Positions 25,211 through 53,639 of a stretch of DNA of 64,000 nt are shown one piece after another (the stretch's first letter is position 1; each line of letters opens with the position of its first letter). Under the pieces are notes generated by a model that was not told the origin of the DNA, ran no database searches, and saw only the letters and a list, made by a program, of their open reading frames with translations. The position numbers and the translations under genes are program-made. The stretch lies in contig JAHDYG010000006.1 in assembly GCA_023383815.1 (NCBI GenBank), forward strand, positions 25,061 to 89,060, given 5' to 3'. The DNA comes from Rhodocyclaceae bacterium (GTDB lineage: Bacteria; Pseudomonadota; Gammaproteobacteria; Burkholderiales; Rhodocyclaceae).

Positions 25211-28200
25211 ATGCTGTCGTTGCAGTTTTCCAACCGTCAGGAAGTCCTGCTCGAACGCCTGCTCGAGCGTCTGGGCGAAGCACACCCTGGACCGTTCGGC
25301 GTGCGCGAGATCATCGTTCCGAGTACCGCGATGCGGCGCCAGGTGGAGCTGGCCGTTGCCGAACGCGAAGGCGTCGCCGTCAACCTGCGCTTTTCGTACC
25401 TCGCGCAGTGGTTGTGGGCGCAGATCGGGAAGCTCGTTCCGGTTGGCGAGGAGTCGCCTTTCTCGCCACCCGTGCTCGCGTGGCGCCTCCATGCGCTGCT
25501 CGGCGAGCGCGACTGGACCGCGCGTCAGCCGCGCCTGGCGCGCTACCTGGAGGGGGCGAGCGAACGCATGCGCTTCGAGCTCGCCGAGCGCTGCGCGCGA
25601 CTCTTCGACCAGTACCTGACCTATCGTCCGCACTGGCTGGCCCGGTGGGCCGAGGGCGGGACGATCGCCGGACTCGATGCGGAAGGGCGTGACGACGAGG
25701 CCTGGCAGTCCGAACTGTGGCGCCGTCTCGTGCGTGCGCTCGGAGTGGGGGCCGAGCATCCGTCGCACGTCTTCCTGCGGGCGCTCGAAACACGGGGATC
25801 CGCCGCGGCGGCGGGACTTCCGGCGCGTGTCGAAGTATTCTGCGTGCCGGCCCTGCCGCCGCTCTACCTTGAACTTCTGCTGCGGCTCGGACAGTGGATC
25901 GATCTGCGGCTCTACGTGCTCAATCCGTGCCGCGAATACTGGTTCGAGATCGTCGCGCCGCGCCGCCTCTCGTGGCTGGAAGCACGCGCACGCGCGCATG
26001 GTCACGAAACCGGCAACGCGCTGCTCGCAGCCTGGGGGCGCCAGACCCAGGCCCAGATCGACCTGCTCTACGAAGCCAGCGGCGACACCGTCGTCGACGA
26101 AGCCTGTTTCGTGCCGGCGAGCGGGAACCATCTTCTTGCCCGGTTGCAGAACGCCGTTCTCGATCTGGTCGATCCTGCCCCCGGGAGCGTTCCGCTCGAA
26201 GCCGCGGATCGCAGCCTCGAAGTGCACGTCTGCCACGGTCTTGCGCGCGAGCTGGAAGTCCTGCACGACCGGCTCCTCGAGTGCTTCGACCAGGACGAGG
26301 GGCTGCGCCCCCAGGACGTGTTCGTACTCACGCCGGATCTGGACCGGGCGGCGCCGCTCATCGAAGCGGTCTTCGGATCGGCCCCGGCGCACCGGCGTAT
26401 TCCGTGGCAGATCACCGGACTCGGGCAGACCCGCATCAACCCGGTCGCGCGGGTGCTCGATGCAGCGCTCACGCTGGCAGCCGGACGTCACCCCGTCAGT
26501 GCACTCTTCGAGCTGCTGCGCATGGCGCCGGTCGCACAACGCTTCGGCTTCGACCGCGAAGGACTCGAACGCGTGCATGGCTGGTTGCGGGTGGCGGGGG
26601 TCCATTGGGGGCTCGGAGCGGAGCACCGGTCCCGTCTCGGCCTGCCTGGCGGAGAGCGCCATACCCTCGGCGATGGCCTGCAACGCCTGTTCCTCGCCTA
26701 CGCCTGGGGGGAGGACGAGGCGCCTGCGGCGATTGCAGGTGCGGGGGTTCCGGCAGGCGATCCCGAAGGGGCTGCCGCGCTCGACCTTGGGCGCCTGTCG
26801 CGCTTTGCCGAGCAGATCGAGCGGTACTCGGCCGAATGTGCGCGCAACCACGATGCCGAGGGCTGGTGCGAACTGCTGTCGGACCTGCTCGACGGGCTCG
26901 TGCCGGCGACCAGCGAATGGATCGACGATCTGCGCCTGGTGCGGGCCGCAATCGAAGCGCTGCGTGCACAGTGGCGCGCGGCCGACTTCGCTGGTGCGCT
27001 CCCGCTGGAGGTCGTGCACGGGGTGCTCACCGAGGCGCTCGACGAGCCGGCACGTGGCGGGGTGCCGACCGGCGCCGTGAGCTTCGCGGCCCTGCCGAGC
27101 CTGCGCGGTCTCCCGGCCGGCATGATCTGCGCCATCGGGCTCGACGATGGCGTGTTTCCGGGTAATGCCGGATCGCTCGAGTTCGATCTGATGACCCGCC
27201 TGAGCGCGCGCGGCGACCGCCAGCGCCGGACCGATGACCGCAACCTCTTTCTCGACCTCCTGCTGGCGGCGCGCTCCCGCCTGCATCTTTCGTACTCCGG
27301 GCGCAGCGTGCGCGACAACAGCGAGGCGCCGCCCTCGGTCCTCGTCGATGAACTGCTCGATTACGCGAGCCGGCTCTGTGCAAGCGATCCGGCTCGTCCC
27401 GAGGCGCGACAGGACGTCCGCCGCCGACTGACGGTCGAGCACCCGCTGCAGGCGTTCTCGGAGCGCTACTTCGATGCGTCCGAAGGCGACCCGCGTCTGA
27501 CGAGCTATCGTGAGGACACTTGTGAGGCGCTGCGCCAGCGCGAGGCCGCCCGGGGCCTTCCCTCCGCAGGGATGCCTGCGGAGGATGCAGGCACCTTTGC
27601 CGAACGCGCGATGAGCCCGACCGACGATGCGGATGATGAGGACGACCGTCCCGACACCGCCGAGCATCGTGCAGCCCCACCCTTTCTGGCCGCTTCTCTC
27701 GCCCCCGCGGGTGAGCAGTGGCGCCAGCCCACGGTCGAACACCTGGTTCGCTTCCTGCGCCAACCCGCTGCCTACCTGCTCCGGCAACGGCTGGGCATCG
27801 CACTGCCGGGGGCGGATGAGGAGCTGGACGACGACGAAGCCTTCGTGCCCGCCTACGATGCGCCCGAGCGACTGGCCCGACGCATCCTGCCGGCCTTGCT
27901 CGCCGGGGCTGGGGCGCCGCGCGTGCGCGAACTCGCCGCGGCGGGTGGCGAGTATCCGGACGGCGCGCTCGGGGCCGCCCGACTCGACACCGAACTGGTC
28001 CGGCTGGCGGCATTCGCCGGCCCCTTGCGAGCGGCGTTGGCCGAGGGGCCGCTGCCGGCCCGTACGCAGCGGCTGCCCTTCGTGCTCGATGGCGAGGACT
28101 GGGCCCTGCAGGTCGCATTCAGCGATCTGCGCTCCGGCGGACTGGTGCGCTACCGGTACCGCGACGCGCGCGCTGCCGACCTGCTCGAAGCCTGGATCGC

Positions 28201-50395: not shown

Positions 50396-50896
50396 ATGAG
50401 CATGGTTACCCAGGGCGGCAAGCCCATCGAGGTATTGGGAACGTTTCCGCGGCCCGGTGAGCTCGCACCGCCGCTGTCGCTCGTCGGCGCCGATCTGGCC
50501 GATGTCACGCTGGAGACCTTTGCCGGCAAGCGCAAGGTGCTGAACATCGTTCCCAGTCTCGACACGCCGACGTGCGCCACGTCGGCGCGCAAGTTCAACG
50601 TCGAGGCCAACGCACTGCCGAACGCCGTCGTGCTGGTCATCTCGGCGGATCTGCCGTTTGCCTCGAAGCGTTTCTGCGAGACTGAGGGCCTCAAGAACGT
50701 CATTCCGCTGTCGACGATGCGCGGGCGCGAGTTCCTGCGCAACTACGGGGTCGAGATCGCGTCTGGCCCGATCGCAGGGCTTGCCGCGCGTGCGGTCGTG
50801 GTGCTCGACGAGAACAATCGCGTCCTGCACTCGGAACTCGTTCCCGAGATCAAGAGTGAACCCGACTACGCCGCAGTCATCGCCGCGCTGAAGTAA
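50396..50896 (+). CDS. tpx: Thiol peroxidase (Tpx-type peroxiredoxin)
   Basis: A 166-residue atypical 2-Cys peroxiredoxin that reduces hydrogen and alkyl peroxides with thioredoxin. The peroxidatic cysteine is C60 ([10 protein letters not shown]) and the resolving cysteine C94 (KRFCETEG), equivalent to C61 and C95 of E. coli Tpx. Length is standard. A TAAGGAGAG site precedes the ATG and a terminator hairpin follows. It is probably monocistronic. Confidence 0.95.
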
Positions 50897-50911
50897 GGAT
50901 ATTTTTGCCGA

Positions 50912-50937
50912 CCGTCCCGCGCTGCGGGGCGGTTTCC
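50912..50937 (+). terminator. Rho-independent terminator of tpx
   Basis: CCGTCCCGC and GCGGGGCGG pair over nine positions (one G-T wobble) with a GCT loop, followed by TTTCC, 16 bases after the tpx stop. An ATTTTT run precedes the stem. Confidence 0.6.
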
Positions 50938-50964
50938 TGGGGGCGTCAGAACCGCTTCCGGATG

Positions 50965-51181
50965 CCGGGACTGTCTGCCAGCGGGCAACCGCCGGGCAGG
51001 CAGTCCCGGTTGCTGTTTGGATTGCGGCGCTGCGCTTCGTGCGTGGCGCCCGAAGACCGGACCCATGGAAGCCGATCTGCGTATCGGCTGTCCGGAGTGG
51101 AAGGGCTCGCTGAGCCTTCCCGCAAATGACCGCCCGGTCTTCGGATCGGGTCATCAAGCCCCGGCGGATTCCGCACCGGGG
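50965..51181 (+). ncRNA. Tandem stem-loop region, candidate structured RNA or leader
   Basis: The 312-base gap between tpx and the flavoprotein gene has no ORF. After the tpx terminator it contains six stem-loops in series. First, 50965-51009: 15-bp arms CCGGGACTGTCTGCC/GGCAGGCAGTCCCGG with one wobble, capped by an inner GCGG-GCAA-CCGC with a GNRA-type loop. Second, 51026-51050: a 10-bp stem GGCGCTGCGC/GCGTGGCGCC with two wobbles and a TTCGT loop. The others are 51070-51089 (AGCCGAT/ATCGGCT), 51099-51120 (GGAAGG/CCTTCC), 51126-51154 (ATGACC/GGTCAT) and 51159-51181 (CCCCGG/CCGGGG). The flavoprotein ATG follows 27 bases later. Strand and function are unknown. It could be a structured 5' leader or a separate small RNA. 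GC-rich DNA makes hairpins easily, so the call needs testing. Confidence 0.35.
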
Positions 51182-51208
51182 TGGCTATCTTGAATCGGGA
51201 GAATCGAC

Positions 51209-52582
51209 ATGAACGATCGGCACGACGCCTCGCGCAGGCGTTTCCTCGCGGCCGCGGGCAGTGCTGCCGCGGCTACTGCGGCCAGCCCGCTGCTCGCAAG
51301 CACACCCGGCCCTACCCCACCTTCCGCACTCCCGCCACTCGTCGGCCGTGCGACCGATACTTTGCTCGCGCGCGGCAAGACGCAACGCGTGGTCATCTGC
51401 GGGGGTGGCTGGGGAGGGGTGACGGCGGCGCGCTATCTGCGCCATCTCGCGCCGCAACTCGAGGTCGTCCTGCTCGAACGCAATCCGGTGTTCTTCTCCT
51501 GTCCGATGAGCAACAAGTGGCTCGTTGATATCGTCGATACCAACTACCTCACCAAGGATTACCTCTCGATTTCGGAGCAGCTTGGCTATCGCTTCATCCA
51601 GACCGAGATCCTGGAGATCGAACGCGAGCGCAAGCGCGTCGTCACCGCGGCCGGCGTGCTCGACTACGATTACCTGATCCTCTCACCCGGCATCCGTTAC
51701 CACTACGAGGCGTGGTTCGGCAACGACCGACGAGCCGCCGAAGCGGCCCGGGCGCGCTTTCCGGCCGCCTACATCCCGAACGCCGAACACTACCGCCTGA
51801 AGCAGTCGATCCACGATTTCCAGGGCGGCGACCTGGTGATGACGCTGCCTCCGCCGCCCCAGCGCTGCCCACCCAGCCCCTACGAACGAGCCTGCCTGAT
51901 TGCTGCCTTGTTCAAGGCGAAGAAGCTCAAGGCGCGGATCCTCATCCTCGATCACAAGGATGGCATCCGCCCGATCGGCCCAGGCTTCCGGGCCGCCTTC
52001 GAGGAGCTGTACAAGGATCAGATCACCTATGTGCCCAATGCCCACGTCCAGGAGGTCGACCCGTTCAACAAGCGCATCCGTACCGCGGCGGGTGAGTTCC
52101 GGTTCGACCACGCGATCCTGATGGCGCCGCACCAGGCCGGCGATCTCGCCTGGAAGGCCGGAGTCGTGCGCCCTTCCGGCCCGGGCCGCCCGGACGGCTG
52201 GGCCGACGTCGATCCGCTCTTCCTCAATGATCGCAAGGATCCGGATGTCTATGTGATCGGCGACGCGGTGGGGTTCGTCTCGCCGCAGTTCGCGTTCTAT
52301 CCGAAGGCCGGCCATGTGGCCAACCGCCATGCCCGCATCGTCGCCCGCTACATCGCGGAACGCGCCGCCGGCCGGGATCCTGCACACATCCTGCCGCATA
52401 ACCTGTGCTACATGATGGTCAACACCGAGCCGCAGGAGGGCATTTCGGTGCAGTTCGACTACAAGCTCAACGAGCAGGGCATCATCGAGCAGACCCAGGT
52501 CGACTACAACGAGCGTGCTTCGACAACGGTAGGCGATGATTTCGAGTGGGCGCGTGTCATCTACGGTGACATGTTCGGCTGA
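51209..52582 (+). CDS. Tat-exported FAD sulfide dehydrogenase-like protein (FccB/SoxF family)
   Basis: A 457-residue flavoprotein like the flavin subunit of flavocytochrome c sulfide dehydrogenase. The N-terminus has a twin-arginine signal (SRRRFLAAAGS), so the folded FAD protein goes to the periplasm. The FAD loop is VVICGGGWGGVTAARYL. Cysteines lie in FFSCPMSNKW, in QRCPPSPYERA and in NLCYMM; the last two correspond to the redox disulfide pair of FCSD. A C-terminal FCSD-type dimer/electron-transfer domain follows. Sulfide or a related sulfur compound is the likely substrate. The usual cytochrome partner is absent, and a cupredoxin gene lies 124 bases downstream. A GGGAGAA site precedes the ATG. 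Confidence 0.82.
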   Translation: MNDRHDASRRRFLAAAGSAAAATAASPLLASTPGPTPPSALPPLVGRATDTLLARGKTQRVVICGGGWGGVTAARYLRHLAPQLEVVLLERNPVFFSCPMSNKWLVDIVDTNYLTKDYLSISEQLGYRFIQTEILEIERERKRVVTAAGVLDYDYLILSPGIRYHYEAWFGNDRRAAEAARARFPAAYIPNAEHYRLKQSIHDFQGGDLVMTLPPPPQRCPPSPYERACLIAALFKAKKLKARILILDHKDGIRPIGPGFRAAFEELYKDQITYVPNAHVQEVDPFNKRIRTAAGEFRFDHAILMAPHQAGDLAWKAGVVRPSGPGRPDGWADVDPLFLNDRKDPDVYVIGDAVGFVSPQFAFYPKAGHVANRHARIVARYIAERAAGRDPAHILPHNLCYMMVNTEPQEGISVQFDYKLNEQGIIEQTQVDYNERASTTVGDDFEWARVIYGDMFG

Positions 52583-52706: not shown

Positions 52707-53060
52707 ATGCATGCCCGCAGCCTCGCCACGCTCGTCATCGCCGCACTGCTTGCCAGTATGCCATTCGCAGGGCTGCAGGCCGGTGGCACCGCCGAGCCTG
52801 TCGTCATCCAGATCAAGGACTACCGCTTCATTCCGGACGAACTCACGGTCAAGGTCGGCACCACGGTGCGCTGGGAGAATGTCGAAAAGCGTCAGTTCCA
52901 CAGCGTGTATTTCGAGTCGCTCGGTGATCCAGTCCGTGACGATTTTTTCCCCGGTGAAGTGCGCGAGCGCACGTTCGAAAAACCAGGGACCTATCCTTAC
53001 ATCTGCGAACCTCACGACAGCTCACACAAGATGCGCGGGGTCATTCACGTCGTGGAGTGA
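52707..53060 (+). CDS. Periplasmic cupredoxin (plastocyanin-like)
   Basis: A 117-residue secreted blue-copper protein. A signal peptide (MHARSLATLVIAALLASMPFAGLQA) is followed by a cupredoxin fold: IKDYRFIPDELTVKVGTTVRWEN and PGTYPYICEPHDSSHKMRGVIHV. The copper ligands are H65, C100, H103 and M109 (pattern C-x2-H-x5-M). It is expected to carry single electrons in the periplasm. An AGAGGAGAA site fixes the ATG at 52707; the ORF track starts inside the flavoprotein gene. Its position suggests it accepts electrons from that flavoprotein, which is inference. Confidence 0.87.
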   Translation: MHARSLATLVIAALLASMPFAGLQAGGTAEPVVIQIKDYRFIPDELTVKVGTTVRWENVEKRQFHSVYFESLGDPVRDDFFPGEVRERTFEKPGTYPYICEPHDSSHKMRGVIHVVE

Positions 53061-53225
53061 CGGCGCGACTCTGGGCGCTTCTGCGCCCAGTGGATCACGA
53101 TCGCAGACGCGATCGTTCTCGCGCGTGCGCGTCGAATTGCCGATCGATGCGATTTGATCGGTTGCGGGATTGCGGTACCCTGACACCCACAGTTGCAGCG
53201 TGCGACTGTTCAAGGGGGGCTCCGG

Positions 53226-53639
53226 GTGAGCATCGAGACCATTCACTCAGTCGTGACCGTGGTTTTCTATGCGATCAGCCTGACGGGGGTGATCGTCGTC
53301 GCGTGGGGTGTCACCGAGGCGGTGTATCGCTTTCTTGCGCTCAAGCTTGAAGGCCACCTGCCTCACGCGCGCATTGTCGCGGCCACCGCGCGCATCCGCG
53401 AGCGGCTGGGTTCTCACCTGCTGCTTGCACTGGATCTGTTCATTGGCGCAGACATCATCAAGTCGGTGGTGACCCCGGGCTGGGAGAACATTGCGATGCT
53501 CGGCGCGATCGTCGTCATCCGCATCACGCTCAGCTACTTTCTCGAACGCGAGATGGAGCATACGCACCTTTCCGCCCAGTCGGGGCGACTGGCGGCGGAC
53601 GGCACTCGTGCGGACCGAGGCGAGCCGCCTGCGCATTGA
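53226..53639 (+). CDS. DUF1622 family membrane protein
   Basis: A 137-residue protein with three hydrophobic segments: TVVFYAISLTGVIVVAWGVTEAVY, LLLALDLFIGADIIKSVV and IAMLGAIVVIRITLSYFLEREM. The pattern GSHLLLALDLFIGADIIKSV...RITLSYFLE is that of DUF1622, whose function is unknown. The C-terminal tail is hydrophilic. I use GTG 53226 because an AGGGGGG motif lies upstream; the ORF track TTG at 53193 is less likely. It is 40 bases from corA, which suggests co-transcription with the ion channel. Confidence 0.75.
   Translation: MSIETIHSVVTVVFYAISLTGVIVVAWGVTEAVYRFLALKLEGHLPHARIVAATARIRERLGSHLLLALDLFIGADIIKSVVTPGWENIAMLGAIVVIRITLSYFLEREMEHTHLSAQSGRLAADGTRADRGEPPAH

Follow-up and report, generated by a model that had tools for sequence, protein, structure and literature searches.

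The window analysed here is a 64,000-nt stretch of DNA in which the thiol peroxidase gene tpx (50396–50896) is followed, after a gap of 312 nt, by a gene encoding an FccB-like flavoprotein (51209–52582). Both lie on the + strand, as do all features described below unless indicated otherwise. Sequence comparison of the FccB-like protein (81 bits to the FCSD central domain PF21706; E 4e-56 to 5n1t_A) clearly identifies it as a relative of the flavin subunit of flavocytochrome c sulfide dehydrogenase. The genes that follow fccB (52707–53636) encode a cupredoxin-like protein and a DUF1622 membrane protein.

The gap is GC-rich. An earlier note on this DNA had described seven consecutive stems in it, and all seven are present at these positions in the predicted fold. 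The first, directly after tpx (50909–50934), had been called terminator-like; the hairpin is there, but its T run is weak and short, and our terminator scan did not score it as a terminator. It is followed by a long hairpin with an outer stem of about 16 bp and an inner stem (50964–51010), and by a hairpin denoted P0 (51022–51053). Then come P1 (51057–51095), with the outer stem CCGGAC/GTCCGG, a 5′ bulge, the inner stem AGCCGAT/ATCGGCT and the apical motif U-CUGCGU-A (loop CUGCGU at 51077–51082), P2 (51097–51123), P3 (51126–51154) and P4 (51158–51182; GCCCCGG...CCGGGGT). P4 is flanked by UCAA on its 5′ side (51154–51157) and by GGCU on its 3′ side (51183–51186), and the Shine-Dalgarno sequence (SD) of the FccB-like gene is located at 51196–51201.

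The + strand of the gap folds with −176.6 kcal/mol, compared to −143.4 ± 6.0 for dinucleotide shuffles (z −5.5), and 0 of 100 shuffles were as stable. For positions 50940–51190 we obtained z −5.5 on the + strand and z −4.3 on the − strand. When 640 segments of 250 nt from both strands of the window were ranked by folding excess, 50940–51189 (+) came first; as only 12 shuffles were made per segment, the rank counts more than the z value. The second most over-structured segment of the window was 27401–27650 (−), with z about −5.3. ORFs do overlap the gap, but none offers a convincing coding alternative, and conservation in this region takes the form of RNA stems with compensatory substitutions. 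Rfam 15 gave no match in the window at the gathering score, and at permissive thresholds the leader and its strong relatives returned weak unrelated matches only.

FccB-like orthologues were taken from 80 genomes and their upstream sequences compared. The series of stems was also found upstream of the orthologues of Thauera, Azoarcus, Pseudothauera, Dechloromonas, Azonexus and Accumulibacter. The element is not tied to the tpx-fccB pair: tpx is the upstream neighbour in the window genome only and was adjacent in none of the orthologous fccB loci examined, which rules it out as a conserved partner; the usual upstream gene is selA. A MAFFT alignment of 44 leaders showed invariant UAA... and GGNU flanks around P4. 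A DNA similarity search with the gap returned mostly noise, although three matches led to leaders of genes for PhnD-like binding proteins (SBP).

A covariance model comprising P3, P4 and the SD (R1) found 58 places in 90 sources. In the window's family, the Rhodocyclaceae, 86 of 399 genomes contained a total of 94 matches, compared with 8 genomes in a sample of 399 from the order; the first pass of this search was lossy, and these counts are therefore lower bounds. A second model, R2, also includes the 5′ hairpin, and the window sequence was left out of its construction. It recovers the window with 36 bits (E 1.5e-5 over 478 kb) and identified three true members from a second family (G168, G128, G929), in each case upstream of a binding-protein-like gene. 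The R1 match in G284 and the weakest R2 matches in the second family look spurious. Two weak copies lacking the 5′ hairpin (L227, L230) lie downstream of a CobJ-like gene and upstream of a kinase/exonuclease-like gene, and are possibly decayed.

Stems four to seven of the earlier description (51057–51182) together with the SD make up the conserved unit. Many relatives have some hairpin at the place of P0, though with another sequence, so that the counterparts of this third stem are positional only. No counterpart was found in relatives for the second and longest stem (50964–51010), a hairpin present in a single copy, which thus accounts for part of the folding energy and not for the conserved element. 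The terminator-like hairpin likewise lies outside it.

From 5′ to 3′ the element consists of a hairpin carrying the apical motif, the variable P3, [GU]YAA, P4, GG[CUA]U (GGYU in its narrower form) and the SD. The 5′ hairpin, with its U-CUGCGU-A motif, occurs as GCGGUCUGYGUACCGC or as CCGAUCUGCGUAUCGG, sometimes with both in tandem; many relatives carry the former at the place of P2, where the window sequence has drifted. It varies little, but U-A to C-G and G-C to A-U double changes are seen. P3 is variable in sequence and its stem is kept by compensatory changes, while P4 has 7–8 bp and 51 distinct arm pairs among the members. The 5′ flank reads GUAA, UUAA or UCAA in 98 of 107 parsed members and GG[CUA]U is present in 100 of 107; the parser favours AA/GG flanks, and alignments not fitted to the structure show the same flanks. 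The distance from P4 to the SD is 12–14 nt in 81 of 98 members.

In the alignment fitted to R1, double changes occur at 14 of 14 pairs, 80% of the cells pair as compared to 36–47% in slid versions, and the covariation score is 0.394 versus 0.06–0.17 (slid) and 0.178 (shuffled). The MAFFT alignments, which are not fitted to any structure, score 0.326–0.329 versus at most 0.168 (slid) and 0.164–0.168 (shuffled). The paired columns thus covary well above both kinds of control; a test for covariation was among the checks that the earlier note had proposed. RNAalifold on the R1 alignment returned only local CCGY/GG pairing, a possible alternative fold. Judged by these comparisons, the 3′ half of the gap is a conserved and probably cis-regulatory RNA, and the 5′ half is not conserved. 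A terminator of tpx combined with chance hairpins, or an independent small RNA, would suit the terminator-like hairpin at the start of the gap and the high GC content. It is at odds with the folding excess (z −5.5, rank 1 of 640), with the covariation and with an element that always ends at the start codon; we regard it as extremely improbable and, for 51057–51201, as refuted, although it may apply to the hairpins at 50909–51010.

The loop of P4 reads CUCC or UYCC(G). In the window it is UUCCG (51169–51173), a predicted anti-SD that is complementary to CGGGA at 51196–51200. Among 100 leaders, UYCC goes with CGGGA in 48 and CUCC with UGGAG in 34, one is crossed and 17 fall outside both types. 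Duplexes of loops with their own SD have an energy of −8.9, compared to −7.6 ± 0.2 for permuted partners (0 of 1000), in a permutation that ignores relatedness; as the two main types in part follow clades, the matching is strong but not phylogenetically corrected. This strongly supports the prediction that the P4 loop is an anti-SD that pairs with its own SD 12–14 nt downstream, forming an H-type pseudoknot that would occlude it. Computationally, the loop-SD complementarity and the fixed spacing give the element the expression platform of a riboswitch. Sequestration by the pseudoknot is not universal, since the SD lies further off in the SBP1 leaders, within its own hairpin such as GCUUCCGA-CAA-UCGGGAGC, and also in some TlpA leaders, where it likewise seems to sit in its own hairpin. 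In the leaders L003, L004 and L030 the SD is contained in its own hairpin and not in the P4 pseudoknot. In L003 and L004 the gene for a TIGR04553-like binding protein adjoins a divergent tpx; in the window, tpx precedes fccB.

In four leaders (L201, L215, L225, L228) a −10 box ends 6–8 nt before the 5′ hairpin, so the RNA probably begins with the element there. Elsewhere the element is often intercistronic, including in selA operons.

The genes downstream of 95 matches encode FccB-like proteins (40), TlpA-like together with transglutaminase-like proteins (about 33) and binding proteins (12); acyl-CoA-dehydrogenase-like genes (3) and one EgtB gene are rarer, and a few are unclear. The same element hence stands before several unrelated genes of one process, as is characteristic of a conserved cis-regulatory RNA. 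In at least 37 of the 95 matches, for which about 1.5 kb of upstream sequence was covered, selA lies directly upstream, and selB is often found downstream; the regulon is thus linked to selenium. Typically, selA is followed by the element, then by fccB and/or tlpA, the transglutaminase gene and selB. The downstream binding protein corresponds to TIGR04553, “putative selenate ABC transporter substrate-binding protein” (386 bits in G436, cut-off 250), and a second SBP subgroup reaches about 200–228 bits, below that cut-off. These neighbourhoods show that the genes behind the element form one selenium-associated set, characterized by selA and selB as neighbours and by the TIGR04553 binding proteins. 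In two genomes (G001:C18, G019:C1) TIGR04553 binding-protein genes adjoin long fused SelD open frames. The single EgtB (ergothioneine) gene behind an element (L211 in G009) lies between ahpF-like and katG-like genes. An assignment of its product as SenA (selenoneine) was rejected, since it scores 385 against a SenA cut-off of 420 and EgtB fits better (578 bits).

With or without the element, the TAT-exported FccB-like flavoprotein is accompanied by selA in 53 of 80 fccB loci (L032–L111), often also by TlpA, transglutaminase-like and TIGR04553 genes, and in many by selB. We regard this selA-linked group, with selB, as a candidate set of selenium genes. In Hydrogenophaga-type genomes fccB follows selA and the element is absent, so the link between the genes is wider than the RNA. 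Synteny points to a selenium role of the FccB-like gene, and the earlier label of a sulfide-dehydrogenase-like operon, although correct about the relationship to FccB, understates the selenium-associated context.

Since the same RNA precedes several unrelated genes in selenium operons, it looks like a switch for selenium-related genes. Of the two possibilities the earlier note had raised, a long structured 5′ leader is favoured by the covariation, the recurrence before unrelated genes, the predicted SD pairing and the lack of an Rfam family. A separate small RNA finds no support, as the element always ends at the gene start, its 3′ hairpin is predicted to pair with the SD and its position in selA operons is intercistronic.

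In many genomes the element sits between selA and genes linked to selB, which could suggest a SECIS-like leader bound by SelB, as at E. coli selAB, with SelB and Sec-tRNA repressing translation when selenocysteine is plentiful. The motif GGUCUGC also resembles the loop string of the E. coli fdhF SECIS. A SECIS is, however, characterized by a bulged U and a GGUC-type loop, whereas the conserved hairpin has a stem of 5–6 bp and a 6-nt loop, and its GCGGUCUGYGUACCGC form folds as an unbroken stem. Moreover, SelA is missing in 35 of 80 genomes that carry the element, including the complete genome G000, and in 31 of the 69 near-complete ones (at least 90% complete with no more than 5% contamination), among them the window's own (99.98% complete). 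SelB exceeds its cut-off in only 45 of the 80 and is missing from the other 35; G000 gave only weak EF-like matches, none over the cut-off. We therefore reject SelB as the general sensor; a SelB-bound leader is very unlikely and, as a general mechanism, largely refuted. SelD is present in 33 of the 35 SelA-less element genomes (the two exceptions are 76% and 53% complete) and in 31 of 33 other genomes of the family. Being nearly universal there, it is uninformative as a marker and does not discriminate element genomes, and in the many that lack SelA and SelB the selenium link rests on it.

The E. coli selAB leader is reported to be SECIS-like and bound by SelB (Thanbichler and Boeck, 2002, cited in PMC8124441). 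The element resembles it as a leader structure at selenium genes, for which translational control is predicted here, but differs in lying after selA, in not adopting a SECIS fold and in occurring in genomes without SelA and SelB.

In the mechanism that we propose, the P4 loop would pair with the downstream SD and block ribosome binding, giving the OFF state. Sufficient selenium, or enough of a metabolite from its pathway, would lead the pseudoknot to close and turn acquisition or handling genes off, and the SD would be free when selenium is short. The RNA itself, rather than a protein reading it, would bind the signal, and this step is the least certain. Alternatively, an RNA-binding protein might read the signal by recognizing the hairpin loop of CUGCGU type and shifting the pseudoknot between P4 and the SD. 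The conserved sequence of the apical loop would fit a protein site equally well, and several leaders carry the loop twice, in P1 and in P2, as is seen with sites for dimeric proteins. Yet the conservation of [GU]YAA and GGYU on either side of P4 is as high as that of the loop, a pattern in keeping with a compact ligand pocket, and we find a protein reader rather doubtful. A passive structure that merely keeps basal translation low or couples it to selA, without sensing, is unlikely. SD-occluding hairpins are common and many copies are intercistronic behind selA, but occlusion alone would not require so many hairpins or the conserved single-stranded flanks, and the element is found before at least five gene families as well as before units that have a promoter of their own.

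Taken together, we consider it probable on comparative grounds that the element is a cis-acting translational control leader of selenium operons, with an SD-occluding pseudoknot and a response to selenium, in which the RNA reads the signal. Plausibly, it is a riboswitch. That it represents the first riboswitch class to sense a selenium metabolite (e.g., one derived from selenide or selenophosphate), closing the SD pseudoknot and shutting off selenium-acquisition genes in Rhodocyclaceae and relatives, is a possibility that we put forward tentatively.

Like the H-type pseudoknot translational riboswitches SAM-II, preQ1-I/II and SAM-VI, the element is a small leader with a predicted 3′-end loop-SD pseudoknot and a predicted translational OFF state. 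Unlike them, it has a separate 5′ hairpin with an apical loop, a variable P3 and a P4 flanked by [GU]YAA and GGYU, and it precedes different genes without an Rfam match. Comparative genomics of selenium gene neighbourhoods has previously tied YedE, YedF, DUF3343 and LysR_Se to selenium metabolism by synteny (Lin et al., 2015; PMC5322559), as is done here; LysR_Se is a protein regulator, whereas the element is RNA. A text search of that paper for oxidoreductase, sulfide, FAD and Betaproteobacteria returned no mention, so the selA-linked set of FccB-like, TlpA, transglutaminase and acyl-CoA-dehydrogenase genes appears to be absent from it. Our literature search, which covered few subscription papers, so that an earlier description is possible, found neither a selenium riboswitch nor a description of this leader.

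According to reviews published in 2022 and 2026, a dedicated high-affinity system for selenium uptake has yet to be identified in prokaryotes (PMC9312934; PMC13188914). The element marks a probably co-regulated set near selA and selB, comprising the TIGR04553 transporter, the FccB-like flavoprotein, the TlpA-like thioredoxin and the transglutaminase-like and acyl-CoA-dehydrogenase-like proteins, and because this set adjoins selA and selB it names candidates for such a system. It also provides a handle on bacterial selenium sensing. If the RNA binds the signal directly, it would constitute a new riboswitch class; even without ligand binding, it represents a new family of regulatory RNAs that Rfam 15 lacks and that carries a predicted pseudoknot switch.
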